Virus record (IMG/VR): IMGVR_UViG_3300031687_001114
Span: 1-64,000 of that record
Strand: one strand, 5' to 3'
Source: a virus
DNA: 64,000 nt
Shown here: positions 8,375 to 33,813 of the stretch, in pieces
Position numbering within the stretch: the stretch's first letter is position 1
How the letters are laid out: every line of letters starts with the position of its first letter
Translations under genes and position numbers: made by a program
Notes under the pieces: generated by a model
Databases searched by the model: none
The model's input: the letters and a program-made list of their open reading frames with translations, nothing else
Told to the model about the DNA's origin: nothing

Positions 8375-9682
8375 TTACCAATCCAGTAATTTGTATAAGT
8401 CTGGCAGACTGTCTGCTAAACTTTGGTTACGTTTATCATCTAATAACAATGTGTAACGTTTGAATATTTCCATTTGCGTTTCAGCATCATCGTTAACTTG
8501 GTCATCGCCCAATGCATTAATAATTCCTAGCACTGTTTGTTTATTCCTTTCATCGTTAGCAAAGTATGTACTAGTATCAAGCCAGTGATGTAATCTACTC
8601 TTTGCTTCGTCTCTAATGTTCTTAGGCAAGTTACGAATGTCTAAGCATTTAGGATAGTTGTTCATTAAGAAACTAATGTCTATTCGTCTACCACTTAGTT
8701 CAGTGATCTCTTCAGCATAGTCTAGTAAGTCTGTTATATTTAATATGTTATATATTTGTACAACAGGACTAAACAACAAGTTACCTACAACTTTAGAATC
8801 AGCATACTCTTTAATATGCTTATCTACTATAGACCATTTGCTTCCACTTCTAATATATTCATTGGTGGTACTGTAGCCATCAACACTTAAACACATCAAC
8901 ACATCTCTAAACTTGACTACTAAGTCTAGGAACCTGGGTTGTATGTTAGTCATGTTAGAGTTGAACACTAAGTCAATGTCCTTAGCAATACCCATCTCTA
9001 CACATTTTTCTAGTATCCAATATACACGTTGTATAATAGTTGGCTCACCACCCGTAAAGTATAATCTATTTACATTAGGTAACCACTCCTCTACTGTTGC
9101 TAAGAAGTCTGGCTCATCGAACCAAGGGATAGTGTAATCGTCGAACTGCTCCCAATGAGTGTTCTCTATTACGAATGCACGTTCTTCTTCTGTGTATATA
9201 GTATCGTCTTTTAATTCTTTATATATAGCACTACTGTTTTGGCTCTGACACATTCTACATTTTAAGTTACATAGTGTGCCAAGTCTAAAGTCTAAGTATT
9301 GCGGTGACTCCTCTACGAAGTAATCGTTGTTAATACTCTTGTCTATTATCTTTTTAATCTCTGGAGCATTTCTATGGAAGCCCATCCAGTCTTTGATATA
9401 GTTTTCTCTGTAACTAGGTATGCCCAAGTCTTCTAATTGGTAGCAAGGCTCACACCCTTCTACTTGGTCGCCTTCTATCATTTGCTTTCTTATCTTACGA
9501 TAGTGTTTCCCATTCCAAACATCTTCAATCTTATCACCACGGTCTAACATAATAGGATGCTTGTCGTCATTGTCTCGTTTCACTTGCCCACTAGCAACAC
9601 AGCAAAAGTTAACTGTGCTTGTTGGCTGTGTCATTACATGTATCCAAGGATACGGACAAAATGTTTTACTATAGTCCGTCAT
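8375..9682 (-). CDS. radical SAM protein with N-terminal SPASM/twitch-like region (1 of 8)
   Basis: The radical SAM cluster motif CxxxCxxC is CNLKCRMC at 138-145, followed by the SAM-contact motif TGGEP. Before the core lies a second cysteine set, CPYPW (Cys9), CC (27-28) and CEPC (77-80), followed by an acidic/arginine segment, resembling a SPASM or twitch auxiliary-cluster domain placed at the N-terminus. Such enzymes generate a 5'-deoxyadenosyl radical for peptide, sugar or cofactor chemistry; the substrate here is unknown. The start chosen (MTDYSK) overlaps the upstream radical SAM gene by 14 bases, and an alternative start 21 codons upstream would deepen that overlap. The protein is 435 residues long. 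Confidence 0.88.
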   Translation of the reverse strand: MTDYSKTFCPYPWIHVMTQPTSTVNFCCVASGQVKRDNDDKHPIMLDRGDKIEDVWNGKHYRKIRKQMIEGDQVEGCEPCYQLEDLGIPSYRENYIKDWMGFHRNAPEIKKIIDKSINNDYFVEESPQYLDFRLGTLCNLKCRMCQSQNSSAIYKELKDDTIYTEEERAFVIENTHWEQFDDYTIPWFDEPDFLATVEEWLPNVNRLYFTGGEPTIIQRVYWILEKCVEMGIAKDIDLVFNSNMTNIQPRFLDLVVKFRDVLMCLSVDGYSTTNEYIRSGSKWSIVDKHIKEYADSKVVGNLLFSPVVQIYNILNITDLLDYAEEITELSGRRIDISFLMNNYPKCLDIRNLPKNIRDEAKSRLHHWLDTSTYFANDERNKQTVLGIINALGDDQVNDDAETQMEIFKRYTLLLDDKRNQSLADSLPDLYKLLDW

Positions 9683-10898
9683 GTTTATTGCCTGCTTTAA
9701 TTTGTTGCATGTCTGACATAAACTGCATTGTGTCACTCTGCTCAAAAAATGGTTTAAGGTGTTCCCATAACTCTGGGAATGTTTCTGCTATACTCTCATC
9801 TCTGTACTTGTCACTGAATGCTGTCTGTCTTACAAACTCGTCCATGTGTCCTAAGTAGTGCTCTTGGTTCATATACGATAACGTTGTTTGTATTCTAGGA
9901 TCATTATGTCCAGCAAACTTCTCTGTTATTGCTCTCTTAACAGACTTAGGTAATGCTTTAGGACTTACATGCTTAGGCTCGTATACCATATTAAAATGTA
10001 TGTTACAGTCTATGTCGTTCTCTAGTTGCCATGTGAGTATCTCATCCATGTACATAACATTAAACAACCCTACTGTATAAAAAATATTTAACTCTAAGAA
10101 GTCGTGTTGATTAAACTTGTGGAAGTTATCTACAACTTCATCAAACTGTTGTGGGTGACGTATGTATTCAAACTGTTTGCCTACACCATCAATACTAAAA
10201 AATATTTGTACTCGTTTAAACTCTTTCCAAAGTTCAATAGCATGTGCCGGATATATAGATCCGTTAGTGTTATAACTAATACTTATATCCTTAGCTCTGC
10301 CTTTATCAACTAACGATTGTAATATTTCAAAATGTCTTTTAATAAGGAAAGGTTCTCCACCAAAGAACTCCAAGCTCTCCACTTCCTCAATCTGAGATTC
10401 TAAGTCGTCCCAGAACGCTTCGTTCATCTCGGGCCACCGTCCTTGCTTCGCCATCATCTGTGCAAACAAGTTAGTCGAGTTGTCTCGTTCTATTTCTTCT
10501 GGTACCCATTGGCTACTTGCAAAACTTGTACATATTCTACACTTGGTGTTACATATATTGCCTAGTTTCAAATCCATGCTCTTTGGTTTTAGATGATCCA
10601 AGTCTTCTATGTGATGTGAAAACTTTATAAGTTCTCTTAAACGTTTACTTTCTATTCCAGCATCTTCTTCGTTCCAACAATTGAAACATGCTTTAGGTTT
10701 CTCTCCTGCTAGGAAGTCTGTCTTTAAGTCTGCTAGCCATTCGCTATCCCATGCTTGTTTTAATGTGCCACCGTCTGCTAAGTCGATACCAGGAACAGTT
10801 TCCTGCATAACACAACAAACAGCAACCGAGCCATCTGTTCGTGCTTCCTGATTAACCCATGGGAGTATACAAAAATGTTCTGGTGTAGCAGTTGACAT
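9669..10898 (-). CDS. radical SAM protein with N-terminal SPASM/twitch-like region (2 of 8)
   Basis: At 409 residues this is the shortest of the eight. The core cluster motif is CNTKCRIC at 116-123 and the SAM-binding strand carries FFGGEPF. The N-terminal auxiliary region has CILPW (Cys10), CC at 28-29 and CFNC at 71-74, then an EEDAGIESKR segment that recurs in several paralogues. An AAGGA ribosome site precedes the ATG. It sits between another radical SAM gene and a 53-residue acidic protein, three bases from the latter, so the small protein is a candidate partner or substrate. Confidence 0.88.
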   Translation of the reverse strand: MSTATPEHFCILPWVNQEARTDGSVAVCCVMQETVPGIDLADGGTLKQAWDSEWLADLKTDFLAGEKPKACFNCWNEEDAGIESKRLRELIKFSHHIEDLDHLKPKSMDLKLGNICNTKCRICTSFASSQWVPEEIERDNSTNLFAQMMAKQGRWPEMNEAFWDDLESQIEEVESLEFFGGEPFLIKRHFEILQSLVDKGRAKDISISYNTNGSIYPAHAIELWKEFKRVQIFFSIDGVGKQFEYIRHPQQFDEVVDNFHKFNQHDFLELNIFYTVGLFNVMYMDEILTWQLENDIDCNIHFNMVYEPKHVSPKALPKSVKRAITEKFAGHNDPRIQTTLSYMNQEHYLGHMDEFVRQTAFSDKYRDESIAETFPELWEHLKPFFEQSDTMQFMSDMQQIKAGNKHDGL

Positions 10899-10901
10899 TA
10901 C

Positions 10902-11063
10902 TTAATCCTTGTTCCCATAGATGATATCTACTAACGAGTCTTCGTCATTGTCATCCGGTGTAAAATTATCGTCGGGTGCAATCTCGGCATCAGCATTTGC
11001 AAATCGTCTGCGTTGTATGGCGTCCCAATTAATATCTAGCGCCTGTTTTTCTTTATCAGTCAT
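10902..11063 (-). CDS. small acidic protein (53 aa) between two radical SAM genes
   Basis: The ATG at 11063 has a good GGAGAG ribosome site and overlaps the upstream radical SAM stop by 8 bases; its own stop is 3 bases before the next radical SAM gene. The product has a short basic helix (NWDAIQRRRFANA) followed by a highly acidic tail with a repeated PDDN (APDDNFTPDDND) and ends DIIYGNKD. It has no cysteines or obvious leader-peptide motif. It is unrecognised; size and position make it a possible radical SAM substrate or partner, but acidic linker-like proteins of other roles look similar. Confidence 0.6.
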   Translation of the reverse strand: MTDKEKQALDINWDAIQRRRFANADAEIAPDDNFTPDDNDEDSLVDIIYGNKD

Positions 11064-12414
11064 CTTCTCTCCATTGTGGATTTCTTTCAGCATCTCTTTC
11101 TACTCTACTCTTTGATAAGTCTACAGCATCATACTGTTCTCTATAAAGTTCAAACTCTGGATGCACATCAAAGAAATCTTCTTTTCTAAACCTGTCCATT
11201 TCTTTTACACTTTCTAAAAACTCTACAGTTAAGTGTGTATCGTCTCCATCTAGGAAACTTCTAAATGCTTTAAATGTATTTGTTGTTCTGCCTAACTTGT
11301 CCCAATCTTTTATTTCTTCTAGTAATACATCAATTTTGTGCTGTGCTTCTTCTCTTAAATGTTTAGGCATCACAGTTGCTCTTTGGAATGCTTGTCCTAG
11401 TAAAATGTTTACAGCGAAACCTTCTATAGTAATAAAGTTTGTGTCAACTAGTTCTCTAAAAAAGTCTGTAATGTTTAATGCATTAAAAATACTTACAGTA
11501 CAACTAACGTGGAAGTCTCGTATCTCAGGTGCTTCGTCATGTAGTCGCTGTCTGTTTGCAACTAAGTCTTTCCATATAGTTCCTTTACGCAGATACTCTC
11601 CACGTTTACCACTAGCATCTATACTAGCACCGATGCCAACAGACTCAAACTTCTTCCAAAGCTCAATAACATCTTGTCCCTTGTATGTGAGCTTACTAAA
11701 GTTTGTGTTATAGTAAATTCTCATAGGGGTATTTTCTTTTGTTCTTCCCATGTCAACTAACTTATTCATTATGTACCAATGCTCATCCATTATCAACGGC
11801 TCGCCACCTGCCCAGTATATTTTCTCTACTGTGTCTAGGTACGGATCGAATGTTTCTAGGAAGTCTGTTGATCCTTTTTTGATTTGGTGTATAGCCTGCG
11901 TTGGCGTTTTATTAAACTGACTGTCCGTTGCATCGTTAAACCATAAGCTACTTAAATCAGGCCCACATGATCTACATCTCATGTTGCAGATATTACTAAA
12001 GCGAATATCCATGTACGTCATGTTTACACCGTCAACACTACCATCTTCATGTGTGTTAAGTACTTCTTGGAACTGGTCCTTACCGTACGGGTTATGCTTT
12101 CCTTCAATAAACTCTTCGTTACTTCTTATTCTTAATGTCTGATGTCCATGTGACTCTTGCTCGTAACATCTATTACAGTTAGAAAGTTTTTTGTGGTTAA
12201 GCATATCCAGTCTAAACTTTTTCAATCCAGGACCATTCCATACGCTTTCTAATGTTGAGCCTTCTTCGTTTAGATCGCCTACCGGAGAATGCAGTTCACT
12301 TAAACAACAAGTAAACACTCTGCCATCGGGCCACGGGTGCATGTGTATCCACGGTATCACACAGAACGCTTCGCTTTCCATTAGTTCTTTTTTTGATAGA
12401 TCTTTAAAACTCAT
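11056..12414 (-). CDS. radical SAM protein with N-terminal SPASM/twitch-like region (3 of 8)
   Basis: The core cluster motif is CNMRCRSC at 143-150, with WAGGEPLI on the SAM-binding strand. The N-terminal auxiliary region has CVIPW (Cys18), a glycine turn, CC at 36-37 and CNRC at 80-83. The start was set at the ATG overlapping the desaturase stop as ATGA, which trims a 16-residue extension read from the desaturase gene. The protein is 452 residues long. It lies directly downstream of the fatty-acid desaturase, so a lipid-linked substrate is conceivable but not shown. Confidence 0.88.
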   Translation of the reverse strand: MSFKDLSKKELMESEAFCVIPWIHMHPWPDGRVFTCCLSELHSPVGDLNEEGSTLESVWNGPGLKKFRLDMLNHKKLSNCNRCYEQESHGHQTLRIRSNEEFIEGKHNPYGKDQFQEVLNTHEDGSVDGVNMTYMDIRFSNICNMRCRSCGPDLSSLWFNDATDSQFNKTPTQAIHQIKKGSTDFLETFDPYLDTVEKIYWAGGEPLIMDEHWYIMNKLVDMGRTKENTPMRIYYNTNFSKLTYKGQDVIELWKKFESVGIGASIDASGKRGEYLRKGTIWKDLVANRQRLHDEAPEIRDFHVSCTVSIFNALNITDFFRELVDTNFITIEGFAVNILLGQAFQRATVMPKHLREEAQHKIDVLLEEIKDWDKLGRTTNTFKAFRSFLDGDDTHLTVEFLESVKEMDRFRKEDFFDVHPEFELYREQYDAVDLSKSRVERDAERNPQWREDD

Positions 12415-13187
12415 TTGCTTATTACCTTTATTATCAATCCGTTTAAATCCCACTCCCACCATTTGTTTCCTTGGTATGCTAGACTAGGATCATTGTGATG
12501 ATTATTATGCCAACCCTCACCGAACGTTATTATATTTACCAGCCAATGGTTAGTACTCTTGTCGTTAGTGTCATACGTTCTGTAACCCATCCATGTAAGC
12601 CCTTTACCATGACCCCATGTATTAAACGCACCGGTGGCCCAAACACATAAACTTACAGGAGCCAAGTACGCATACAGCACTAGCAATGGATCTATTAATG
12701 CTAAAACTACAATGTATACTAGTATGTATCCAAAAAAGTAGTTATGCGAGTGTAATACTGCGTTGTTCTTTAGCCAATCTTTAGCAAGTCGTATGTTATA
12801 TTTTTCATCCTTTAACCCTAATGTCCAGCTCTTCCACAAGCTCATGTGGTGCGGACTATGAGGATCACTGTCGCTATCAGATGCTTTGTGGTGTTCTCTA
12901 TGCTTAACTATGTAACCAAACACACTACTTAAACTTGCTAAGGTGCCTGTTACGTTAAGTACATTTTCCCAAAACTTGTTAGTCTTGAAACTCCTATGTG
13001 CAAAGTATCTGTGTTGCCCAACGAATATTCCTATGCTACTAAACCAAAAGTAAACAATAGCAGTTACCCACAACAGTTCACTAGGACCTATAAGCAGTAC
13101 TGCTAGTAGTCCGGCATGAGCCAGCCATCTAAGACTGTCTCCTTTAGTTTTAGTATACGCTAGTATGTTCACTTTGCTCCACTGCAT
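12411..13187 (-). CDS. membrane fatty-acid (acyl-CoA Delta9-type) desaturase
   Basis: All three histidine boxes of membrane di-iron desaturases are present: HRYFAH (59-64), HREHH (96-100) and HNNHH (227-231), separated by hydrophobic segments at about 25-55, 75-95 and 150-190. These enzymes use O2 and electrons from a ferredoxin or cytochrome to insert a double bond into acyl chains, and act in the inner membrane. At 258 residues it matches compact bacterial forms. The ATG at 13187 overlaps the upstream radical SAM gene by 38 bases; a GTG at 13172 has a better ribosome site (GGAG) and may be the true start. The redox partner is not in the window. Confidence 0.9.
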   Translation of the reverse strand: MQWSKVNILAYTKTKGDSLRWLAHAGLLAVLLIGPSELLWVTAIVYFWFSSIGIFVGQHRYFAHRSFKTNKFWENVLNVTGTLASLSSVFGYIVKHREHHKASDSDSDPHSPHHMSLWKSWTLGLKDEKYNIRLAKDWLKNNAVLHSHNYFFGYILVYIVVLALIDPLLVLYAYLAPVSLCVWATGAFNTWGHGKGLTWMGYRTYDTNDKSTNHWLVNIITFGEGWHNNHHNDPSLAYQGNKWWEWDLNGLIIKVISK

Positions 13188-14394
13188 CTACTAACTTAGT
13201 AAATGTATTTCTCCATTCGCTGTTATCGTTGTTGTCTAGTAAATCGTTAAAGCGACAAAACTGTTCCCACTTTAATTCATTCCACTCATCGTTATTAAAC
13301 ATGCTAAGTAAAGTGCCTAATTTATGATCATTGCCCAACGCTTGTCTAAATTCTGTATGTATCAACTCTCTTGCCTTAACAGGTATAACTGCAGGACTTA
13401 GGTAATCAGGATCATACACGAAGTTCATATCAACTTCTATCCCAATGCTATCGGCCCATTTAAAAAATTCAGGCAATGTAGCATAATTGTAAGCACTCAC
13501 TGTTTGTGTAATTCTTAATGTTAATGTATCTTGTAATGGTAATAATGTATTAATAGTTTTTAATACGGCTTCCCATTTTGTATTAGTTCTTATAAAAGCA
13601 TTCCTATCTTCTAAGTCATCAATACTTAAACATATTCTTGCTTCTTTAAAGTGGGGCCATAGTTCTAATGCAATTGGAGGTAGCATAGTACAGTTAATGT
13701 TATACCACAGTATAATATCTTTTGCTCTGCCACTAGCTACTAATTTCTTTAAGTAAGTCCAATGCTGTTTAATCAATGTAGGCTCTCCACCATTGATATA
13801 AATTACTTCTAAGTTTGGAGCGGAGTTATATAGGTCGTCATAAAAATTATCATCCTCTGCCCATTTAAAATCTTCAGGAAAGTTAAGTCCTAAGTAACCT
13901 TTATTTACGAAGTCAGCTTTCTCCACAATGTCTTTATAGTCTTCAAGCCACTTTGAACTACTTGCCGGATTACATGTACGGCACCGAACGTTACATACAT
14001 TGCCAAGACGAAGCTCGACAAAGCGGAGATCCATATCAATATCGCCACCTTCCCTAGTAACCCCACTCGCCCAATCAAGGGTGTTCTGTGGAAAAACAGA
14101 TTGTTCATGTATTCGTTTGGACTTGATTCCGTTATCTTCTTCATTGTAACACCTCATGCAAGCCTTTGGCTTTTCATCGTTGAGCATCTGTAGGCGAACT
14201 TCTTTATAGTAGTCGCTGTTCATCTGCTCTTCGATATTGTTTTTGTTTAAGTCTAGGAACTCATCGTAATCATCCTTATAATTTCTAGCTCTGTTTTTGC
14301 CATCAGTGTGGTCACTGATGCAACACAATGTGATACCACCGTGAGGATGGGTGGCTAAGTGTTGCCAAGGTAGAGGACAATATGTAGAACTCAA
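13150..14394 (-). CDS. radical SAM protein with N-terminal SPASM/twitch-like region (4 of 8)
   Basis: The core cluster motif is CNVRCRTC at 134-141, followed by INGGEPTLI on the SAM-binding strand. The N-terminal auxiliary region has CPLPW (Cys6), CC at 24-25 and CMRC at 79-82, then EEDNGIKSKR. Translation appears to start at a TTG that overlaps the previous stop as TTGA, with an AGGGAG ribosome site eight bases upstream; no better start is present. The coupling to another radical SAM gene suggests the two act together or in sequence. The protein is 414 residues long. Confidence 0.88.
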   Translation of the reverse strand: MSSTYCPLPWQHLATHPHGGITLCCISDHTDGKNRARNYKDDYDEFLDLNKNNIEEQMNSDYYKEVRLQMLNDEKPKACMRCYNEEDNGIKSKRIHEQSVFPQNTLDWASGVTREGGDIDMDLRFVELRLGNVCNVRCRTCNPASSSKWLEDYKDIVEKADFVNKGYLGLNFPEDFKWAEDDNFYDDLYNSAPNLEVIYINGGEPTLIKQHWTYLKKLVASGRAKDIILWYNINCTMLPPIALELWPHFKEARICLSIDDLEDRNAFIRTNTKWEAVLKTINTLLPLQDTLTLRITQTVSAYNYATLPEFFKWADSIGIEVDMNFVYDPDYLSPAVIPVKARELIHTEFRQALGNDHKLGTLLSMFNNDEWNELKWEQFCRFNDLLDNNDNSEWRNTFTKLVDAVEQSEHTSVY

Positions 14395-15755
14395 TTTATC
14401 AACTCCCTGGTGCTATGCTGTTTGTAACCATTTGTCAACACTTCCTCATATTCTTTCGTGTAATCGAAGTCTTGTTTTATCAACTCGTGTAACTCGGGAA
14501 AGACTTCTGTAAAGTTCTCTTCTCGATAATGGTCTCCTCCTGCTATTTGTGATTTAAATATTTTCCATTTGTTTTCTATACTTCGTTGGTCAAACATTAA
14601 TAGTTTATCCTCGGAAACTTTTGCTCGTAGTTTTTCATCTACGCTGGCACCATTCTCATATAACGGTGAGTTAAAGTATTTTAGTAATGCTACTACTTCA
14701 CTCTCATAGTCACCTGACCATGTGTGCTCTTGTAATTGTTGTGTGATTATTTTCTTAGCAAACGCTGGTAGTACATTACATGTAAGCCACTTAGGATAAT
14801 GTGCAATGTTATTCCATATTTTAAATGTAGGATAGTGTTTGTGGAAGTAATCGTGGAACTCAGGCAAGTACATTATATTTAATGCTGTAACAGTATGTGT
14901 TATTTGCATGTGTACTGGATAGTCGCCTGTGTGTAGTTCGTAAAAATAATCTAAGTTCTGTTTGACCTCGTCCCACTTACCAGGGTGCCTTAAGAATTCA
15001 AATCTGTCTCCGATGCCGTCTATACTAATACTAAACGATAACTCTTTAAAGTTACTTGCCATACGTTGCAAGAACACAGGGTCTGCTATTGTGCCGTTAG
15101 TACTTAACGTCATGCTAATGTTTTGTGAATAGTTCTCATTAATAAGTTTGTCAACAAACTTCTTGAACTCTTTCATATAGAAAGGTTCGCCACCCATAAT
15201 CTCTAATCGTCTTATGCCAGGTAGCCACTCATCCATTGTAGTCCAAAACTTACTGTTCTCCATATCGTTCATGGGAACCTTCGCACTAGTTTCCCAATAC
15301 GGTATGTGTCTCTCTTTAGCTTCTGCTAACCACTTACTACTGTAGTTTGCATTACAACTTCTACATGCTAAGTTACAAGTGTTATCAAATATTAATTGCA
15401 TGTCCATTACTGCTGTAGGTTTAGCAGTCCATTCGAATGTTTCCATCCAGTTAGGGCCATACCAGTTATCGTAGTAGTCATTGTATTGTTGGCGTTTACT
15501 GTATTTGCCATTGTCTTCATCGATCCAGCATGTTTCACAGTTAGCTGGCTTACCGCCATCGAGGATCTCATTTCTTATACGTTGATGGTTATGACTAGTA
15601 AATATATCTTGTACAGCATCATCGCCTAAGGTGTAGCTTGTACCATGGTGGTCCTGTAGTCTATCTTTTGCGATACAACATGTGCGGATACTTCCACCTG
15701 GCTCGTTGCTCAAGTGTGTCCATAGTAATGCACAATATTTTTTATCTTCGCTCAT
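14391..15755 (-). CDS. radical SAM protein with N-terminal SPASM/twitch-like region (5 of 8)
   Basis: The core cluster motif is CNLACRSC at 127-134, with IMGGEPFYM on the SAM-binding strand. The auxiliary cysteines are Cys8 (CALLW, where the usual proline is replaced by leucine), CC at 26-27 and CETC at 73-76. At 454 residues it has a longer C-terminal helical part than its immediate paralogue. Its ATG lies inside the end of the PLP-enzyme gene (14-base overlap) and its stop overlaps the next radical SAM start, tying a PLP enzyme and two radical SAM enzymes into one translational unit. Confidence 0.88.
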   Translation of the reverse strand: MSEDKKYCALLWTHLSNEPGGSIRTCCIAKDRLQDHHGTSYTLGDDAVQDIFTSHNHQRIRNEILDGGKPANCETCWIDEDNGKYSKRQQYNDYYDNWYGPNWMETFEWTAKPTAVMDMQLIFDNTCNLACRSCNANYSSKWLAEAKERHIPYWETSAKVPMNDMENSKFWTTMDEWLPGIRRLEIMGGEPFYMKEFKKFVDKLINENYSQNISMTLSTNGTIADPVFLQRMASNFKELSFSISIDGIGDRFEFLRHPGKWDEVKQNLDYFYELHTGDYPVHMQITHTVTALNIMYLPEFHDYFHKHYPTFKIWNNIAHYPKWLTCNVLPAFAKKIITQQLQEHTWSGDYESEVVALLKYFNSPLYENGASVDEKLRAKVSEDKLLMFDQRSIENKWKIFKSQIAGGDHYREENFTEVFPELHELIKQDFDYTKEYEEVLTNGYKQHSTRELIN

Positions 15756-18706: not shown

Positions 18707-18747
18707 TATCTATCTCCTAATTTTATTGTGTGTATCGTATACTGTAC

Positions 18748-18755
18748 TATTTATG
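18748..18755 (-). promoter_or_regulatory. T4-type late promoter box CATAAATA
   Basis: CATAAATA on the minus strand lies in the 59-base gap before the sugar-dehydrogenase gene. A start about six bases downstream would give a 36-base leader containing the AGGAGATAG ribosome site. It is a conventional leadered late promoter and would serve the long coupled cassette that follows. Confidence 0.6.
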
Positions 18756-18765
18756 CAAATTTCTA

Positions 18766-22113: not shown

Positions 22114-22115
22114 TG

Positions 22116-23534
22116 CTATCTCGAGTTATGTTTCGGATCAGGGCGTGTGTACCAATTGTATAATTCCTCGTCTGCTTTATAAATTTCTTCTATTGTTAAT
22201 GCTTCGCCTTCAGCGCCATCGTTTCTAATAGTAGCAATAGTTTGTTGCCATTGTCTGCCATTAAAGAACTGATCCTCATGTGTATCTGGAAACTGTTCGG
22301 CGAACGTAGGAGTGTTTAGTATTGTTTCTAGTTGAGTTATTACTGTGCTTTGTTTCTCAGTTACAATAGGACGCAAATCATCTAACAAACTGTTTACTAT
22401 TCTATCTAGTATATGTCTGGGCCAACTCATAAATGTAAATACTACGTCAGGATGGAATGCAAACATATTCTTAGTTTCAATTTTAACATTAAGGTCTAGT
22501 GAGTACTGTACGAAGTCACGTAAGCCAAATAGTCCAGGACCTGTTAGTGTTAAGTCCATAAGCATTTTACTATCGCCACCAGGACATGCAACACCTTCTC
22601 TAAAGTTCTTATCCCACTCTTCCCATACTAAACCTGTGCGTATGAACTCGCCTATCTTTCCTATGCCGTCGATACTAGCACACATAGTCCAGTCCTTTGC
22701 TTGTGGCAACCAGTCGTACAAGTAGTGCTTACCAAAACGTACTCTACTTAGGTTACTGTTATAACGTAAGTGTACTTTGCGTAAGTTATCATCTTCGGAT
22801 AGTCTAGCCATGCTCTTCCAATGTATATCATACATAAGTGGCTCACCGCCAACCCAGTATATTTCTTCCACCGTGCCTGACTTAATTGCTTCCCAAAATT
22901 CTTCTTCTACTACTTCCTTTTGAAACTTTTGTATAATCTTTTTATTTTCTGGAACCATGAACGGTTGGCTCTCTGGAGTCCAGTGGTCGTTCTGTCTCTT
23001 CTCTGTTTCCCATGCTGAACTAAGTTGCTCACCGCACATACGACATTTGAAGTTACATAAGTTACTAACCCTGTAATCAAAACTAATAGGATTCATTGTA
23101 GTAAAGCCATCGTCGTCTGTACTATCGAAGCACTCGTCTATTTTATCTTCAAATAAGAAACCAGTAAACCATTGACGGTATGTACTTTGACTTAGTACAC
23201 TATCGTTGCACACATTACATTGTGGTATCTCTTCACCTGCCATTAACTTCTTACGGATGTCCATCATATATGGACTGTTCCAATGTTCTTTTAAACTAAT
23301 AGGCTTATAGTCATCGATGGTCCCGCTCTCTTTAAACTTGCCAGTACTTTCATCATTACTTGCATCGATGTATTGCTTTTGGAATTGGTGTTCTTCTCTA
23401 CTAGCACAACACATACGTCTCTCTGACTGCGGACTAATATAAGTATGTGTCCATGGAGCAGTACAGAAAACTTTGTTCTCTGAGTCTTCGACCATACTGC
23501 CATGAGCCCATTTAGGCTTAATTCTATTACTCAT
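22116..23534 (-). CDS. radical SAM protein with N-terminal SPASM/twitch-like region (6 of 8)
   Basis: The core cluster motif is CNFKCRMC at 160-167, with WVGGEPLMY on the SAM-binding strand. The auxiliary cysteines are CTAPW (Cys24), CC at 42-43 and CNVC at 106-109; the CC-to-CxxC spacing is longer than in paralogues because of an inserted charged loop. The usual acidic partner after CxxC is replaced by NDSVLSQS. Total length is 472 residues. It overlaps the 330-residue unknown protein by 8 bases, which in turn overlaps another radical SAM gene, so the three form a unit. Confidence 0.88.
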   Translation of the reverse strand: MSNRIKPKWAHGSMVEDSENKVFCTAPWTHTYISPQSERRMCCASREEHQFQKQYIDASNDESTGKFKESGTIDDYKPISLKEHWNSPYMMDIRKKLMAGEEIPQCNVCNDSVLSQSTYRQWFTGFLFEDKIDECFDSTDDDGFTTMNPISFDYRVSNLCNFKCRMCGEQLSSAWETEKRQNDHWTPESQPFMVPENKKIIQKFQKEVVEEEFWEAIKSGTVEEIYWVGGEPLMYDIHWKSMARLSEDDNLRKVHLRYNSNLSRVRFGKHYLYDWLPQAKDWTMCASIDGIGKIGEFIRTGLVWEEWDKNFREGVACPGGDSKMLMDLTLTGPGLFGLRDFVQYSLDLNVKIETKNMFAFHPDVVFTFMSWPRHILDRIVNSLLDDLRPIVTEKQSTVITQLETILNTPTFAEQFPDTHEDQFFNGRQWQQTIATIRNDGAEGEALTIEEIYKADEELYNWYTRPDPKHNSR

Positions 23535-24519
23535 CGTCTTCCCATACAGCGATATCGCTAATGTAAGGACATGCTTCTAATTTGGTTATAATACTTTCGA
23601 ACGTTTCATTTTGTAACGCTCCTAGTTTAGCTCTGCCTATGGCATGTTTAGGCTCTGTGTGGTCAATGCCATATTTAGAAACTTCGTTGGCTTCACACCA
23701 TTGATGCAATCTTCTATTTAAATGTGTTTCAACCTCAGCATCAAATACTTGAAACGAGGCTTGATTCAAACCAATACATGCACTACCGGATATTAATGTT
23801 TGAGGTTTAACCTCTTTACGTTTTATTAATTCTAAATCTTTTGATGCATAAGCATGACCTAAATCTTTGCCTACGGTAAAGAAGTCTAAAAACAAATCAC
23901 CTGTATAGTATTGACTTTGGAATTGTGCGTAGTCGTCATCTGTTAATTCTATATATTCTGCTTCTGCATTAGGACTAAAATGTCTTGCTACTATAAAGTA
24001 TTGCTTCTCATCTAATTCTTCTACTGCAAAGAAACGAGATATGTTTGCTTCTATTTCGTGTACCGTTTTATTTAAACGTTCCAATATCTCTACTTCCGGA
24101 TGAGATTCTTCTGTATAAACAAAGCCTGAAACTTCTGTTAACTCTACTAATTGTTTTTCAAAAATAAAATGTACTTCGTTTAATTTGTCGTGCATTTCTT
24201 TTGTAGTATCTGTTATAGATAACTTTAGATCCGGATCGGCTCCTTGCGAATCTATATCAGTATTTAAACTATTAATTAGTAGTTGCATGTTTACACTTTG
24301 ATTAGCGTCATACAAATTCCAATGTAGCCATCTATATTCATCAGCTATTGCTGTTTTTGTAATGTTATAAAACTGATTACCAATATGCGTGTCTGCTAGT
24401 TTCCAAACAAGTTCTTGGTTGCCACCTTTAAAACTACTCTTGCCTATTACATTAGTGCCACCACTATCCATTACACCTACGGGTGTTGGACTTAAACTCA
24501 GTTTGTAGTACTTACTCAC
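23527..24519 (-). CDS. unknown protein between two radical SAM genes (330 aa)
   Basis: No family is recognised. The GTG start overlaps the radical SAM stop upstream as GTGA, and its end overlaps the next radical SAM start by 8 bases. Such strict coupling suggests a partner or substrate. The N-terminal part is glycine- and serine-containing (VMDSGGTNVIGKSSFKGG), followed by acidic helical stretches and a C-terminal motif DHTEPKHAIGRAKLG. There is no signal peptide, membrane segment or cysteine cluster. It could be a docking protein for the radical SAM pair, but this rests only on gene order. Confidence 0.6.
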   Translation of the reverse strand: MSKYYKLSLSPTPVGVMDSGGTNVIGKSSFKGGNQELVWKLADTHIGNQFYNITKTAIADEYRWLHWNLYDANQSVNMQLLINSLNTDIDSQGADPDLKLSITDTTKEMHDKLNEVHFIFEKQLVELTEVSGFVYTEESHPEVEILERLNKTVHEIEANISRFFAVEELDEKQYFIVARHFSPNAEAEYIELTDDDYAQFQSQYYTGDLFLDFFTVGKDLGHAYASKDLELIKRKEVKPQTLISGSACIGLNQASFQVFDAEVETHLNRRLHQWCEANEVSKYGIDHTEPKHAIGRAKLGALQNETFESIITKLEACPYISDIAVWEDDE

Positions 24520-26192
24520 TCGTCTACTGCTCCGCCAAGTCCATCAGTGTCTGTGTCCCAACCAATGCTACTACCAGCACGTTTTTTAATATTAGGATTA
24601 ACTCCTTCTATTTCATTTTCGTATTTGGTATCATCATAGTCATCGTCGCTCTCACCTGTTTGGCGCCCACGTACTTTCATTTCTACAACTTTAACTTCGC
24701 CGTCCTCTGTAACAATACGTTTGGCATACAATGTATTAGTTACACCTACACTATCTGGTGCTTGTATGTCGTGGTCATCGCTAATGTCTAATACATCAAT
24801 GCTGTCGTACCAGTCTACTAGCCTAGGGAATGTTGTTCTAAAATTATGTCCACGTCTCGAATCGTACTGCTCGTAAAACACTTTGAAGTCATGGTCTAAC
24901 AAGTATTGCTCTGCTGTATTCCTGTGTGGAGTTTTAACAACATCTAAATATTCTATTAGTCTGCTTATTTGATCTTGTTCCCATGCTTGGAGTAATTCTA
25001 CGCCATGCATATCTCTCTCGCCTTTATTTCGAGTATCATCTAACCACTCGCTAAGTTCATCATGATACATTTTACGCAAGTCATCTGGCAATGTTAATGG
25101 ACTTTGGAAACTAGGGAAACGTAATATGTTTACACTAATACCCGGAACGTGATGTCCGTATTTTCTCTTCATAGACAATGTCCAATCTAAGAATTGACAA
25201 ATAGTATCTAAGCATAATGCATTGACAGTCATCATCATGTGTACGCCTTCGTATCTTGCCTCTGTGGCAAAACGTTCAAACTGTGCTGTCCATATTTCCC
25301 AATCTAATCCGTCTCTGATATATTCTGCTTGGGCACCAAAGGCTTCACAACTTGTATACACATGGAAGTGGTCAATGTGTTGTGTAGCATCAATAAACTT
25401 GTTTAGTAACCCAGGCTTAGCCATTAAGTTACTGTTAATAGCCAAACGCATCTTCTTAGCATTGGGCTCGTCTGTTTCTTTAAACCAATCGAACAGTTTG
25501 TAGATACTAGGAGTCATTAATGGCTCACCGCCAGTAACACGAATCTCTTCTAGCTCTTTACTTAGCTCGGGCCACCATCTCCAAAATGCATCTACATAAG
25601 GATTGGCTGTACCGGCATCGTACGGTTCGGCATACGGAGCATCATCGATAAAGTGACCTCTTGCATCTGACTTAATACCTTGATACCCACCATTGGTTCT
25701 AATATCTTTAACCCATGTACTACTAAACGCAGGATTGCAATAACTACATGCTAACTGGCATGTTCTATCAAATGCAACCTCACAGGTTTTTAAATTAACA
25801 TCAGCGTTAGGATCTAACGTTGCAATGTGTTGTAAGTCTCTATCTTCATATATAACTGTTTTATATACTCTGTCGGACACAGCTTCATTGCCGTCCGAGT
25901 CTTGCCCCATGTCTTCAATCTTCCAACAGTACTCACACTCTTTGGGCCGTGTGCCTTCCTGCATCATTTGACGCATCTTCTTTTTGTGTCTGCTGTTGTG
26001 AATAGCACTAGGGTTTTCTTTAATGTCTTCTAAATCTATTTGGTGTGCTGGGGGATGATGACAACTAGTTGTTCCACCATGGCCCAACCATATAGTAGCA
26101 TTGTACCATTTGGCGCCGCAAAAGGAATCTGATACTGGATCTATCATCCTTGCTTTAAATTCTCTGTGAGTCTCGTCTACCTTCCTAACCAT
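24516..26192 (-). CDS. large radical SAM protein, subfamily with SC-x-HPP motif (7 of 8)
   Basis: The core cluster motif is CQLACSYC at 145-152 and the SAM-binding strand has VTGGEPLMT. The N-terminal cysteine region differs from the six CC-type paralogues: CGAKW (Cys25), SCHHPP around Cys44, and CEYC at 86-89 followed by WKIEDMG. It closely matches the gene at 28332-29966, so the two form a separate subfamily. At 558 residues it is the largest, with a long acidic C-terminal tail. It overlaps the short-chain dehydrogenase gene by 8 bases and lies just downstream of MetK. Confidence 0.88.
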   Translation of the reverse strand: MVRKVDETHREFKARMIDPVSDSFCGAKWYNATIWLGHGGTTSCHHPPAHQIDLEDIKENPSAIHNSRHKKKMRQMMQEGTRPKECEYCWKIEDMGQDSDGNEAVSDRVYKTVIYEDRDLQHIATLDPNADVNLKTCEVAFDRTCQLACSYCNPAFSSTWVKDIRTNGGYQGIKSDARGHFIDDAPYAEPYDAGTANPYVDAFWRWWPELSKELEEIRVTGGEPLMTPSIYKLFDWFKETDEPNAKKMRLAINSNLMAKPGLLNKFIDATQHIDHFHVYTSCEAFGAQAEYIRDGLDWEIWTAQFERFATEARYEGVHMMMTVNALCLDTICQFLDWTLSMKRKYGHHVPGISVNILRFPSFQSPLTLPDDLRKMYHDELSEWLDDTRNKGERDMHGVELLQAWEQDQISRLIEYLDVVKTPHRNTAEQYLLDHDFKVFYEQYDSRRGHNFRTTFPRLVDWYDSIDVLDISDDHDIQAPDSVGVTNTLYAKRIVTEDGEVKVVEMKVRGRQTGESDDDYDDTKYENEIEGVNPNIKKRAGSSIGWDTDTDGLGGAVDE

Positions 26193-26787
26193 TATAATTT
26201 CCTACGTCGAAGCTCAAGCTTCTTACCTGTACCTGATTATTTAGTCCTATTATCCATTCTAACATCTCCGCTACACTATCAGCAGTCATCATATAATCTT
26301 CTGCAAAATCTTTAAGCCATGCTGTGCTATCAGTGTCAACCATGCCTGGCTTAATGTTCGTTACTCTGCACTTACCTTTCTGGAACTGATTACTTAGTTG
26401 TAAACTTGCCCAGTCGAGTCTTGCTTTGTCACTAACATACGGAGTCCAGTCTTTGTTGTAACCCATCTGTGCAAAGTTATGTATACTGTCGCTACTTGTT
26501 GCACCCATATTAATTATTTGCCTAGGCTTGTTTTCCCATGCTTCATAGAACAGGTATAGTAGTCTGACTTGGCTACCGGGTGCGTATGCGTTGTTAACGA
26601 ATATATCAGCTTTCCATTCTAATGCTTCTTTAACAATACGTTTGCAAGTACTCTCTTTCATAATATTGTAGCCATTGCTTTTACTAAAGCCCATGACTTC
26701 AATACCCTGAGCTTCTAGCCTTTCAACTAGATACTTTCCGATGCCCCTTGTGTGTCCTGTTATTGCAACTCTTTTTGTGTGTGCCAT
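26185..26787 (-). CDS. short-chain dehydrogenase/reductase (SDR)
   Basis: Classical SDR landmarks are visible in 200 residues: the nucleotide-binding TGHTRGIG (10-17), NNAY in place of NNAG (65-68), a serine-containing stretch GATSSDS near 96-101, and the catalytic Y-x-x-x-K as YVSDK (117-121). SDRs are NAD(P)-dependent oxidoreductases; the substrate is unknown. It is shorter than typical (about 250) and lacks much of the C-terminal substrate loop. No ribosome site is obvious; a GGTAAATA box ends five bases before the ATG, so the message may be leaderless. Confidence 0.8.
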   Translation of the reverse strand: MAHTKRVAITGHTRGIGKYLVERLEAQGIEVMGFSKSNGYNIMKESTCKRIVKEALEWKADIFVNNAYAPGSQVRLLYLFYEAWENKPRQIINMGATSSDSIHNFAQMGYNKDWTPYVSDKARLDWASLQLSNQFQKGKCRVTNIKPGMVDTDSTAWLKDFAEDYMMTADSVAEMLEWIIGLNNQVQVRSLSFDVGNYNG

Positions 26788-26792
26788 ACTAC

Positions 26793-26800
26793 TATTTACC
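26793..26800 (-). promoter_or_regulatory. late-promoter-like box GGTAAATA
   Basis: GGTAAATA differs from the ATAAATA consensus by one base but sits exactly five bases from the ATG of the SDR gene, like the other box-N5-ATG sites. It lies in the 22-base gap after MetK. It is the weakest of the five by sequence. Confidence 0.4.
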
Positions 26801-26809
26801 TGCTTTTTT

Positions 26810-27910
26810 CTAGTTATTAAACAAATCTACGCTTTCCCAAGGTAAATCATCTTTACCGAAGTGCCCGTAGTTAGTTGTCCTTGTTAAGTCTAGATTAAAC
26901 AAATCAAAACGTTTAATAATTCCTAGTGGTGTTAAGTCAACATTATCACGGAAGTAGTCTTCAAACTCCTTTCTAACAATGCCATCTGCGTACACATATA
27001 TACTAGTAGGTTCTTTAACACCGATAGCATAACTTAGTTGCACTACACAGTTTTTAGCCTTGCCACTAGCAACAACATTCTTTGCTAAGTAACGTGCCAT
27101 GTAAGCACCGCTTCTGTCTACTTTAGTACAATCCTTGCCACTAAATGCTCCGCCGCCATGTGGGGCATAGCCACCGTATGTGTCTACAATAATCTTACGT
27201 CCTGTAAGTCCTGTGTCTCCATCTGGTCCACCTATAACAAATTTACCTGTAGGGTTAATATGCCATACTGTTTTTAGTACGTCTACTTTATCTTTGATAA
27301 CCGGCAATATAATGCCTAGTACACGTTCTCTTACTTCGTCTATGCTTAGTTCGTCGCTATGTTGAGTACTACATACAACTGTCTTAATGTATGAAGGCTC
27401 TCCTAGTTTTTTGTATGCAAATGTTACTTGACTCTTTGCATCCGGTCCTAACCAATCTGCACCGTTGCGTCTTGCTTCTTCTAGTGCTTGTAGTATTTTA
27501 TGACTGTAATGTATTGTGCTAGGCATAAAGTTATCTGTTTCGTCACATGCGTAACCAAACATAATACCTTGATCTCCTGCTCCAAAGTCGTCAGTGCCTA
27601 AGGCAATGTCTGAACTTTGTCCATGCAGTTCGTTGTATACCACTAATCTTTCCCAATGGAATCCGTCTTGTTCGTAACCAATCTCTTTTACTACGTTGCG
27701 TATTAGTGATTCAACTTCCTCTTTACTAATGAGTTTGTCTGACTTATATTCGCCTGCTACTGTAACCATGTTAGTTGTAACTAATGTTTCAACTGCCGCT
27801 CTATTATTAATGTTACCATCGATAATAAATGTTGCTACTGTATCAGAGATTAAGTCGGCTATTTTATCCGGATGTCCGTTACTCACGCTTTCGCTTGTGA
27901 ATTCGTACAT
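26810..27910 (-). CDS. metK: S-adenosylmethionine synthetase
   Basis: MetK joins ATP and methionine to make S-adenosylmethionine, the cofactor of radical SAM enzymes and methyltransferases. The family signatures are GHPDK (12-16), GAGDQGIMFGYA and the phosphate-binding GGGAFSGKD, with ATP-site residues such as GGPDGDTGLTGRK in between. At 366 residues it is slightly shorter than the host-type enzyme (about 384) but complete. An AGGAGAGGA ribosome site precedes the ATG, and a perfect TATAAATA box lies upstream, so late expression is expected. It sits between two radical SAM genes, fitting a role in supplying SAM. Phage-encoded MetK is uncommon but not unprecedented. Confidence 0.95.
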   Translation of the reverse strand: MYEFTSESVSNGHPDKIADLISDTVATFIIDGNINNRAAVETLVTTNMVTVAGEYKSDKLISKEEVESLIRNVVKEIGYEQDGFHWERLVVYNELHGQSSDIALGTDDFGAGDQGIMFGYACDETDNFMPSTIHYSHKILQALEEARRNGADWLGPDAKSQVTFAYKKLGEPSYIKTVVCSTQHSDELSIDEVRERVLGIILPVIKDKVDVLKTVWHINPTGKFVIGGPDGDTGLTGRKIIVDTYGGYAPHGGGAFSGKDCTKVDRSGAYMARYLAKNVVASGKAKNCVVQLSYAIGVKEPTSIYVYADGIVRKEFEDYFRDNVDLTPLGIIKRFDLFNLDLTRTTNYGHFGKDDLPWESVDLFNN

Positions 27911-27947
27911 AATCCTCTCCTGTTGTTTACTTCATATAGAAGTGTTC

Positions 27948-27955
27948 TATTTATA
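27948..27955 (-). promoter_or_regulatory. T4 late promoter box TATAAATA upstream of metK
   Basis: TATAAATA on the minus strand is a perfect match to the T4 late consensus, about 38 bases upstream of metK with a strong ribosome site between. A TATAAT hexamer overlaps it, so a host-type polymerase might also read it. A weak 6-bp hairpin at 27968-27987 overlaps the previous stop. Confidence 0.7.
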
Positions 27956-27979
27956 TTATAACATGAATTGCTTAATAAA

Positions 27980-28303
27980 TCAAGCAACAAATAATCCTTT
28001 CATGCTTTTACCTTTTGACATATCACCGTTGAATGTCATTTTGCCACCCATAACTAATTTAACTGGGTCAGCGCCTTTAGTAAACATCTCAATCATTGTA
28101 TCTTTGCTAACAAATCCTACAGTGATGTCTGCTTTATCTAAATGCTCGTTACACAGAATACATTTCTTATCGTGTACACTAATAGAAAACTTACCATTAG
28201 TTTCACTAATAACATTAACGTTAATATCAATATCAATGCCTTCTGATTTTTCTTTCTGAAATTTACCTTCTAAGTCTGTTTTAATTGTGCCAAAGTCTAA
28301 CAT
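27980..28303 (-). CDS. SCP2-like sterol/lipid-carrier domain protein
   Basis: The 107-residue protein resembles a single SCP2 domain: an N-terminal helix, central strands (ADITVGFVSK) and the closing helix and strand with GADPVKLVMGGKMTFNGD. SCP2 domains hold lipids or other hydrophobic molecules in a tunnel. The start was chosen at the ATG at 28303 because AAGGAGGAT lies just before it; an 18-residue upstream extension has no such support. Its link to the phage desaturase and hydrolases is suggestive of lipid handling. A CILC motif around residue 54 is unusual for the family. Confidence 0.75.
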   Translation of the reverse strand: MLDFGTIKTDLEGKFQKEKSEGIDIDINVNVISETNGKFSISVHDKKCILCNEHLDKADITVGFVSKDTMIEMFTKGADPVKLVMGGKMTFNGDMSKGKSMKGLFVA

Positions 28304-28331
28304 ATTATCCTCCTTTTGGATATTAAGTTTT

Positions 28332-29966
28332 TCATAGCAATGCTTCTGCCTCTTCACATTGTTGCCAAAATTGATGCATCTCTGGAAATGTTGCTAAGAA
28401 ATTTGTGTCTCTTCTTGCGTCATGTTCGCTAAAGAATTTAAAAAAGTCTGCTCTGTCTCTTCTTAACTTATCACTATCGATGTCTTGTTTCATTATATCT
28501 AAGTTACGTTTTGCTTTAGCAATTTCAAAATCTTTAAAACCTCTGTAGTCTACATAGTCTTCAGTTGCTTTGTTATCTTCCATAAATTGAATTGCTTCCT
28601 GCATGTAGTCACAATACTCGCTAGGTAGTACATGTATACTTTGCCATGCTGGTGCTCTAAGCAATGGAATGTCAAACCATATACGTTGCTCCGGAACTTC
28701 CCAACCCATTGCAAACTGGTTCTCTTTACTCCACTTATCTCTAAGGTCTAATATTCCTTGTAGGAATTCTGTAAAACTTGTAACACTTAAACAGTTAAAC
28801 GTGTTAATAAAATTAATACTAGTAAATCTAGTTTCGTCTAAAAACCTATGACAGTTATTCCACACAGTATCAAATACCATACCATTACGCATATACTCTG
28901 CTTGTTCGCCCCAACCATCTAAACTACAAAACACACTAAAGTTATGATATGCTTTGTCGTTGTATTCGTAAATATATGTGAAACTATTGTTATCCTGTTC
29001 TTCGCATTGTCCAACTTGCATAAACGTTTGCGGTATCTCTTCTCGTTCTATTACTGCTAAGTTGCTGTCGTGATAACGTTTTGCATCAGCGCCAATTATA
29101 GCATGATCCCATGTTTGCCAATCTGTGCCGTCTAGTGGATCTGCTACATATACTTCTGCACCATGTTGTACATTATCTAATCTCTTAACTGAATCTAAAA
29201 ACTTTACAAACAATGCATCGTTGGCAGGACACATGTTTGTTGTTATACTTAATTCTAAATCTTTATTTGGATTTGCTAATACATAATCTAATACTTTAAA
29301 AGTATTCTTATCCATTAATGGCTCACCACCAGTCATACGAAACACACGAAGTGTTTTATACATCTCGGGCCACCACTTCCAAAACGCTGTAACGTATGGA
29401 TTAAGATCCTGTTTTACTTTTAATGGCATTAAGTTTTTTAGTGCAAGACTGTCAATATTATTATGTGGAGCAGTAGTTGGATATTCCCCAAACTCGTCTA
29501 TCTCTTCTTGCCATGCTGTACTTAAATGTGGAGAACAATAACTGCACTTGAAGTTACATGCTTGATTAAAGTTTACTTCTACATAACGTGGATTGATGTT
29601 GCCACTAGCACCAGCATCTAAAATATCTTCTTTACTTTCTTGTGCCCAATACTCGCCACTGCGATATACTCTGTCACTTCTTGCACCCGTATCTTCTATG
29701 TCCCAACAATAACTACAGCCATCTGGTCTCTCGCCTTTAAGCATTTGTCTGCGTTGTTCTTTCTTTTCTTTTGTGTTATGTAGTGCTGTTGGATTATCTT
29801 TTAACTCATCTAACGGAATTGAATGTGTAGGCGGATGATAGCAACTGTGTGTTTGACCATTTGTTAAGTGCATAGATACCTGAGACCATTTAGCATAACA
29901 CATGCTAGGACTAATATTATCTAGTTGCTCTTTAGCCTTATCAGCGGCTTGGTCGTATATGCTCAT
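28332..29966 (-). CDS. large radical SAM protein, subfamily with SC-x-HPP motif (8 of 8)
   Basis: The core cluster motif is CNFKCSYC at 137-144 and the SAM-binding strand has MTGGEPLMD. The N-terminal cysteines are CYAKW (Cys23), SCYHPP (Cys42) and CSYC (84-87), followed by WDIED and SDRVY, all shared with the gene at 24516. A segment between the GGEP motif and the second half (about 265-330) looks inserted relative to the six shorter paralogues. At 544 residues it is the second largest. Its ATG overlaps the upstream SDR-like stop as ATGA. Placement next to the SCP2 and metK genes suggests co-expression. Confidence 0.88.
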   Translation of the reverse strand: MSIYDQAADKAKEQLDNISPSMCYAKWSQVSMHLTNGQTHSCYHPPTHSIPLDELKDNPTALHNTKEKKEQRRQMLKGERPDGCSYCWDIEDTGARSDRVYRSGEYWAQESKEDILDAGASGNINPRYVEVNFNQACNFKCSYCSPHLSTAWQEEIDEFGEYPTTAPHNNIDSLALKNLMPLKVKQDLNPYVTAFWKWWPEMYKTLRVFRMTGGEPLMDKNTFKVLDYVLANPNKDLELSITTNMCPANDALFVKFLDSVKRLDNVQHGAEVYVADPLDGTDWQTWDHAIIGADAKRYHDSNLAVIEREEIPQTFMQVGQCEEQDNNSFTYIYEYNDKAYHNFSVFCSLDGWGEQAEYMRNGMVFDTVWNNCHRFLDETRFTSINFINTFNCLSVTSFTEFLQGILDLRDKWSKENQFAMGWEVPEQRIWFDIPLLRAPAWQSIHVLPSEYCDYMQEAIQFMEDNKATEDYVDYRGFKDFEIAKAKRNLDIMKQDIDSDKLRRDRADFFKFFSEHDARRDTNFLATFPEMHQFWQQCEEAEALL

Positions 29967-33806: not shown

Positions 33807-33813
33807 GTGTGTG

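Follow-up and report, generated by a model that had tools for sequence, protein, structure and literature searches.

PMC5332604, from 2017, reports 12 radical S-adenosylmethionine (SAM) genes in one T4-like marine genome, TARA_ERS488813_N000010, and ties them, in the passages concerned, to iron-sulfur (Fe-S) metabolism, namely to an A-type carrier and IscU. The host recognition cluster of pelagimyophages, as presented in the relevant passages of PMC7029224, is a variable island that lies between VrlC and gp14 and carries radical SAM cassettes as well as genes for tail fibres, glycosyltransferases, and UDP-glucose dehydrogenase; the glycosyltransferases and the dehydrogenase of such islands are read there as modifying the host O antigen. 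Given these 12 genes and these cassettes, multiplicity is therefore not new. Here, we analyze a locus with eight radical SAM genes, R1 to R8 (named left to right), in a 64,000-nt stretch of viral DNA (the window) that is part of the 74,129-base IMG/VR virus record IMGVR_UViG_3300031687_001114. The eight belong to separate lineages that are conserved as a set in a recurring order, a finding that is new with respect to those passages of both papers. The link to a predicted glycosyltransferase (F1), the counterparts in Bdellovibrionota, and an independent case in a Vibrio phage likewise go beyond them.

The locus resembles TARA_ERS488813_N000010 in that many radical SAM genes occur in one marine phage; the families and their order are not described in the passages of PMC5332604 on that genome. 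The Fe-S link differs as well: of 26 records searched for the A-type carrier family PF01521 (25 relatives and the window's own), 2 contain it and the window's record does not, and Fe-S supply by such a carrier was therefore rejected as a component of the set. Like the pelagimyophage cluster in the passages of PMC7029224, the locus groups radical SAM genes with a predicted glycosyltransferase, a UDP-glucose dehydrogenase, and a tail fibre; a large virion protein and the tail fibre lie on one side of it. In contrast to that variable island, the radical SAM set here is conserved, and the baseplate is nearest to those of jumbo phages.

Identity of the eight radical SAM genes

The eight open reading frames (ORFs) are listed below. 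Bit scores refer to the NF033640 model (N_Twi_rSAM, twitch domain-containing radical SAM) unless stated otherwise, and counts out of 15 refer to the records with a whole set, defined further below.

8375..9673, minus strand: R1, N-twitch radical SAM; 344 bits; groups with bacterial sisters, mostly Bdellovibrionota; 15/15 records
9669..10898, minus strand: R2, N-twitch radical SAM; 348 bits; AlphaFold2 model with a predicted local distance difference test score (pLDDT) of 94.2; PDB matches CteB, anSME, BlsE, and viperin
11056..12462, minus strand: R3, N-twitch radical SAM; 353 bits; SPASM PF13186, 36 bits; query for fetching loci
13150..14394, minus strand: R4, N-twitch radical SAM; 345 bits; 15/15 records
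14391..15755, minus strand: R5, N-twitch radical SAM; 307 bits; 15/15 records
22116..23534, minus strand: R6, N-twitch radical SAM; 294 bits; 15/15 records
24516..26192, minus strand: R7, large N-twitch radical SAM (SC-x-HPP); 319 bits; 15/15 records
28332..29966, minus strand: R8, large N-twitch radical SAM (SC-x-HPP); 327 bits; query for fetching loci

ORFs were called greedily with ATG, GTG, or TTG starts, and start positions may be misplaced; for R1, a start at ~9673 is preferred over the TTG at 9745, and the true start of R3 is probably at ~12414. An acid-rich open frame of ~50 codons without an evident start lies between R3 and R2 (10899-11055, minus strand) and is either an extension of R3 or nothing.

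All eight proteins exceed the 170-bit cut-off of NF033640, with scores of 293.9 to 352.6 bits; in 14 control genomes, weak matches (E<=0.001) occurred in all 14, none of them above this cut-off. The model is named for a domain and not for a reaction, and what distinguishes this locus from the family at large is that eight lineages stand together. Of the profiles by which a preliminary description of this DNA had proposed to check the eight, the twitch model thus recovers every member, while PF04055 and PF13186 (SPASM) each exceed their gathering scores in 4/8, and searching R7 against Pfam gave nothing at E<=0.001.

The alignment of R1 to R8 contains seven invariant cysteines, four in the N-terminal part and the three of CxxxCxxC, together with an invariant GGEP, and almost all of 300 phage copies preserve these motifs. 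By these motifs, the eight are members of the radical SAM superfamily and predicted SAM-cleaving enzymes. A twitch domain, which holds one auxiliary cluster, has four conserved cysteines outside the core; the four N-terminal cysteines correspond to these and predict an auxiliary cluster. In this regard, the observations of the preliminary description (eight ORFs at 8375-29966, CxxxCxxC and GGEP in each, and an extra N-terminal cysteine set resembling SPASM/twitch) are confirmed. For R7 and R8, the second position of the CC pair scores 0/87, an effect of the alignment: the one cysteine that they have there falls in the preceding column (82/87, with 5 gaps).

The R2 model matches the core fold of anSME (Z 12.5, root-mean-square deviation [rmsd] 3.6, 207 residues), BlsE (7vob; Z 11.9, rmsd 3.5, 205 residues), and DesII (8hzv; Z 10.8, rmsd 4.0, 214 residues), in a VIA-align comparison that covered mainly residues 25-346. 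BlsE and DesII act on sugar-type substrates, as does BtrN; relative to the former two, R2 shares the core fold at ~16% identity, and its auxiliary-cluster domain is N-terminal. The SPASM peptide modifiers anSME, CteB, and SuiB, whose auxiliary domain is C-terminal, also share the core fold, and no precursor peptide is recognized here. These similarities of the model are those of the superfamily as a whole and say nothing about the substrate. Viperin identity was rejected for the eight, since 6/8 match the viperin model NF038283 at 23-37 bits against a cut-off of 180; peptide-maturase models likewise gave weak matches, far under their cut-offs.

Separate lineages of R1 to R8

The 28 pairwise identities among R1 to R8 range from 18 to 34%. 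We constructed a quick tree of 94 rows, including 54 of 71 bacterial sequences (mostly Bdellovibrionota where named), with support from the Shimodaira-Hasegawa-like approximate likelihood ratio test (SH-aLRT) only, without bootstraps. R1, R2, R4, R5, and R6 each form a single group of 3-6 rows with SH-aLRT of 97-100; the groups of R1, R4, and R6 have three rows each, those of R1 and R6 including one identical pair. R1 joins bacterial rows at 97. R3 does not form a single group; together with R6 and nine bacterial rows it falls in a group supported at 99. The R7/R8 type and further large family members from phages and bacteria make up a clade supported at 100, which bears out the division into CC and SC-x-HPP subfamilies made in the preliminary description. 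The low identities and the separate lineages indicate that the paralogues parted long ago, several of the lineages being common to bacteria, and on the same grounds we excluded recent duplication of one gene.

Retention of the set among viral relatives

Scanning viral contigs with R8 and R3 yielded 71 loci in 59 contigs; 50 relatives were used for the counts of NF033640, metK, and phrog_10646, and 29 for NeuB. The recurring gene order is tail fibre, F13, F15, F2, F2, F17, F1, two large members, R6, UGD, R5, R4, R3, R2, R1, and CarbT, with accessory genes interspersed (F numbers denote protein families, and R7 and R8 were not distinguished from each other in this reading). All eight radical SAM genes, as well as F1, UGD, and CarbT, are present in every one of the 15 records that hold the R8-to-CarbT interval (14 contigs and the window). 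R8, UGD, and CarbT served as the filter for these records, and R8 and R3 fetched the loci, so that R1, R2, R4 to R7, and F1 were free to be absent. The window is near-identical to L016 and L027, and L022 to L024; there are therefore fewer independent cases than 15.

NF033640 matches number 1 to 19 per contig over the 50 contigs, many of which are fragments, with a maximum of 18 candidate places (19 matches). Among the accessory genes, the desaturase, the 2-oxoglutarate (2OG) oxygenase, and the aminotransferase are each found in 10 of the 15 whole sets and NeuB in 5. Over the 29 relatives examined for it, NeuB occurs in 12, and in the gene-order reading it sits between R7 and R6. In the 25 records that include the tail-fibre family, its gene is upstream of the radical SAM genes and shares their strand.

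A collection of phage records was searched with three of the eight proteins. R3 (E<=1e-5) and R7 (E<=0.01) match only Vibrio phages K566 and K567, and neither R8 (E<=1e-5) nor F1 has a match in that collection.

Neighboring genes and F1

The genes interleaved with or adjoining the radical SAM genes are the following.

1691..5575, minus strand: 1294-residue member of the F1 family (by BLAST); no Pfam match
5896..7440, minus strand: O-carbamoyltransferase (CarbT), core; PF16861, PF02543, phrog_1601; PDB matches of the antibiotic type (novobiocin carbamoyltransferase, GdmN, and TobZ); filter for the 15 records
7658..8374, minus strand: DUF6071 protein; PF19547, 40 bits; 13/15 records
12411..13187, minus strand: fatty-acid-desaturase-like, accessory; PF00487, 53 bits; 10/15 records
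15742..16629, minus strand: pyridoxal phosphate aminotransferase-like, accessory; PF00155, 24.5 bits; 10/15 records
16626..17414, minus strand: 2OG-Fe(II) oxygenase, accessory; PF13640, 48 bits; 10/15 records
17414..18706, minus strand: UDP-glucose/GDP-mannose dehydrogenase (UGD), core; PF00984, PF03721; PDB UDP-glucose 6-dehydrogenases, E 2e-19; 15/15 records (filter)
18766..20112, minus strand: F3 protein, glycosyltransferase-like by eye only; no Pfam and no PDB sequence match; 10/15 records
20872..22113, minus strand: second F3 protein, same family by BLAST; no Pfam match
26185..26787, minus strand: short-chain dehydrogenase, accessory; PF00106, 36.5 bits; 10/15 records
27980..28357, minus strand: SCP2 sterol-carrier-like, accessory; PF02036, 29 bits; 9/15 records
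30616..31611, minus strand: F1, predicted GT-A glycosyltransferase, core; D66/D64; AlphaFold2 pLDDT 88.4; moderate PDB matches; 15/15 records
33120..33851, minus strand: phosphomannomutase-like; PF03332, 81.5 bits

F1 has no Pfam model above cut-off. In an alignment of 21 rows, D66 is invariant and D64 is conserved in at least 90%. The F1 model, for which 90 of 107 non-redundant sequences served as input, aligns to glycosyltransferases with a best Z of 9.5 (rmsd 3.3, 145 residues), and Foldseek returned one match at E<=0.001, the first match being the peptide S-glycosyltransferase SunS. Thus, F1 combines a modeled GT-A fold with a DxD motif, and sugar transfer is predicted. The 1294-residue family member appears, by eye, to contain many repeats of one module, and F1-family proteins of 900-1600 residues occur in relatives. 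Relatives with one or few radical SAM members carry a GDP-mannose-dehydratase-like epimerase.

Genes in the cluster overlap or nearly so, and the sole protein recognized in the gaps longer than 60 bases is a 58-residue DUF1289 protein with several cysteines (1498-1674, minus strand; PF06945, 65 bits), below the size of the ORF list, in the gap downstream of the 1294-residue F1 protein.

The metK gene and its upstream motif

26810..27910, minus strand: metK, S-adenosylmethionine synthetase, accessory; TIGR01034, 434.8 bits (cut-off 309.4); 12/50 relatives, 7/15 whole sets

The metK product looks like an intact synthetase, with the usual motifs present. The preliminary description regarded it as a dedicated SAM supply, for which lack of co-occurrence in related phages had been named beforehand as a refutation. 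This proposal largely fails: metK is found in the 12 relatives listed above (11 above cut-off), 8 of the 15 whole sets lack it, and we rejected it as a dedicated partner. In L021, L025, and L032, three of these 8, an adenosine 5'-phosphosulfate (APS) kinase-like gene occupies the metK slot, the copy in L025 matching PF01583 and, more weakly, a cytidylyltransferase-like model; one cofactor-type gene is thus exchanged for another there. Given its distribution and this replacement, SAM supply is mainly an option of one clade. Phage-borne metK is common, with 134 matching records in the phage collection.

The T4 late promoter reported ahead of metK is present as an exact TATAAATA at 27948-27955 (minus strand). 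As a sign of regulation, it was rejected: the motif precedes metK in 5 of 12 metK loci, four of which (the window, L016, L026, and L027) are identical there, the fifth being L028, and the window holds 2 exact matches against a mean of 9.45 in shuffles. The promoter row of L020 is uninformative, its metK start having been miscalled.

Counterparts in bacteria and in Vibrio phage K566

A scan of a genome collection with two short patterns, on which the genomes recovered depend, gave 31 bacterial relatives, 18 of them Bdellovibrionota by title and the rest Bacteroidota, Elusimicrobia, and more. A density search with NF033640 covered 21 of the 31 loci, in 20 genomes. The densest genome has 13 members above cut-off in 29 kb (rows counted by hand, in agreement with a second reading), and another has seven in ~10 kb; in one phylum, 30 of 114 genomes have a member above cut-off. 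Clusters in Bdellovibrionota genomes are thus denser, and density is a habit of the family, not of the phage.

F1 homologues adjoin N-twitch radical SAM genes in 6 of the 31 bacterial loci, where two other radical SAM families (F38 and F39) and F11 are further neighbors. A genome search for F1, with an alignment that included 7 bacterial rows picked beside radical SAM genes, gave 9 matches, spread over 5 of 20 genomes. Six of these are themselves seed rows; for the remaining three, the distance to the closest listed member above cut-off is 2.1, 11.8, and 121 kb. Some bacterial loci contain a glycosyltransferase family 2 (GT2) protein, an AsnB-type protein, or a StrB-type amidinotransferase. 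The amidinotransferase at L119:11167-12243 (PDB 1bwd, E 1e-29) lies within the largest bacterial radical SAM cluster seen. A possible fusion is encoded at L089:13684-15186, next to N-twitch radical SAM genes: the 500-residue protein has CxxxCxxC in its N-terminal part and, from ~residue 223, a GT2 domain.

In Vibrio phage K566, NF033640 gives six matches at E<=0.001. Five score 133-202 bits (two above cut-off) and fall within ~17 kb, whereas the sixth scores 18 bits. Two glycosyltransferase family 8 (GT8) genes are interspersed among four of the five, with LpxC (140 bits) and a gene that looks structural by eye in the vicinity. The earlier statements that radical SAM enzymes occur singly in phages and that the density here is exceptional are contradicted by the 12 genes reported in the passages of PMC5332604, by up to 18 places in relatives, by the five strong matches in K566, and by the bacterial cluster of 13 in 29 kb.

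Virus type and structural flank

36803..38968, minus strand: tail fibre at the cluster border; phrog_19602, 84 bits
39640..56250, minus strand: 5536-residue virion protein; phrog_10938 virion structural protein, 233 bits, in the 1667 C-terminal residues
56259..60632, minus strand: baseplate wedge; phrog_10646, 1020 bits

A second piece of 1400 residues from the 5536-residue protein had no match in the same profile search. The baseplate wedge matches 90 phage records; the top 15, which are 284-490 kb in size, belong to PA5oct-type, SCTP-2, Atu_ph07, and Phosso phages. The phrog_10646 family was found in 24 of 50 relatives, at >=560 bits in 19 (rows counted by hand). One relative, L024, is 339,794 bases long and has parts of the cluster at both contig ends, as expected of a circular or permuted genome. 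Because of the affinity of the baseplate to these large phages, the presence of phrog_10646 in relatives, and the size of this contig, the window reads as part of a jumbo-type marine myovirus with a bacterial host. The largest virus contigs with the cluster include, besides L024, L047 (607,744 bases), where most of the set is present with its order unchanged, along with an A-type Fe-S carrier gene.

Possible roles of the cluster

Several scenarios may explain why these genes are kept together. The one that we favor, at somewhat below even confidence, is a multistep glycan-tailoring cluster aimed at the host surface, that is, at lipopolysaccharide (LPS) or capsule. More broadly, the cluster probably builds an unusual surface sugar or a decoration of the virus particle. 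That eight separate lineages stay together gives the set the look of a multistep pathway, and the neighborhood of UGD, CarbT, F1, and NeuB supports a carbohydrate substrate. Glycan genes also adjoin the family in some bacterial loci and in K566, and the O-antigen reading of such islands in PMC7029224 points the same way. The multistep pathway proposed in the preliminary description is thus partly supported: the appearance of a pathway stands, while the arguments from density and metK do not.

From this gene content, we infer a substrate, an order of steps, a chemistry, a timing, and a purpose as follows. UGD, with accessory NeuB, epimerase, or phosphomannomutase varying by phage, would supply activated sugars, which F1 and other transferases would assemble. 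Each of the eight non-redundant radical SAM enzymes may then alter one unactivated C-H or C-O position, candidate steps being dehydrogenation, epimerization, deoxygenation, and rearrangement, and carbamoyl and other groups would be added afterwards as caps. The most likely acceptor would be the host envelope, whose alteration would shut out superinfecting phages or prevent progeny from binding to cell debris. A bolder version, which we consider possible yet rather doubtful, is a radical assembly line in which the eight N-twitch enzymes would work one after another on a single substrate, either a carbohydrate or a glycosylated part of the virion, with F1 as the cognate transferase, a system common to jumbo phages and Bdellovibrionota that would represent an undescribed surface chemistry.

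Several observations weigh against glycan tailoring. The fold matches of F1 are moderate (one Foldseek match at E<=0.001, Z of at most 9.5), and models without a clear match often reach Z 7-8; the F2 and F3 families match no Pfam family. The best structural matches of R2 include the peptide modifiers CteB, anSME, and SuiB, over which the sugar-acting BlsE has no clear advantage. R8, UGD, and CarbT were filters for the 15 records, several of which are near-identical. Several bacterial clusters (L120, L125, and L126) show no adjoining glycan gene, by eye and on the first 70 residues of each ORF, and the K566 gene annotated as PagP beside LpxC has no Pfam match at E<=0.01. Among the papers listed by the literature searches, there was no NF033640 enzyme with a known substrate and no functional study of the family. 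Finally, glycosyltransferases are common in such islands regardless, as the passages of PMC7029224 illustrate, so the association is partly positional.

The virion itself could be the target, with the radical SAM enzymes altering side chains of the tail fibre or of the 5536-residue protein before sugars or carbamoyl groups are attached to them. The position of the tail-fibre family upstream on the same strand in its 25 records, the peptide-modifying SPASM enzymes among the matches of R2, and SunS as the first match of F1 are consistent with this, and the likely structural gene near the K566 set keeps it under consideration. We nonetheless find it somewhat unlikely: UGD, NeuB, and the carbamoyltransferase better suit glycan supply, no tail genes were noted by eye in nine bacterial stretches, and superfamily-level structure matches do not give a substrate. 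It is less likely still that there is no common pathway and that the eight are separate, interchangeable surface-variation genes in a hypervariable island. Accessory genes do come and go, some relatives (many of them fragments) have one or two members, and the K566 set differs; against this, the eight lineages stand in all 15 whole records in the same order, read by eye, which is unlike free exchange.

Maturation of a ribosomal peptide or synthesis of a secreted small molecule seems improbable. Multi-enzyme radical SAM clusters are known for peptides, and peptide-maturase models do match, at the low scores noted above. However, no precursor peptide was evident by eye in the five gaps longer than 60 bases, where DUF1289 is the only recognized protein, in a reading that did not cover sites elsewhere or test small ORFs of 73-126 residues as precursors. 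Hypermodification of phage DNA or production of antiviral-type nucleotides ranks a shade lower even than this. Phage glycosyl- and carbamoyltransferases can act on DNA, and viperin is among the structure matches of R2; yet the cluster lies in the tail region, some bacterial members stand among sugar genes, and the viperin scores fall far below the cut-off of that model.

NF033640 is thus an often multicopy family for which our searches found no reaction. The recurring order of eight members, the co-retained F1, UGD, and CarbT, the bacterial counterparts, and the K566 set offer concrete partners for finding that reaction. The named phage K566, whose separate set stands near GT8 genes and LpxC, may serve as a genetic system for this purpose. 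If the glycan-tailoring reading is true, phages would remodel surfaces by radical chemistry, which would come as a surprise in the biology of marine phages and their hosts.

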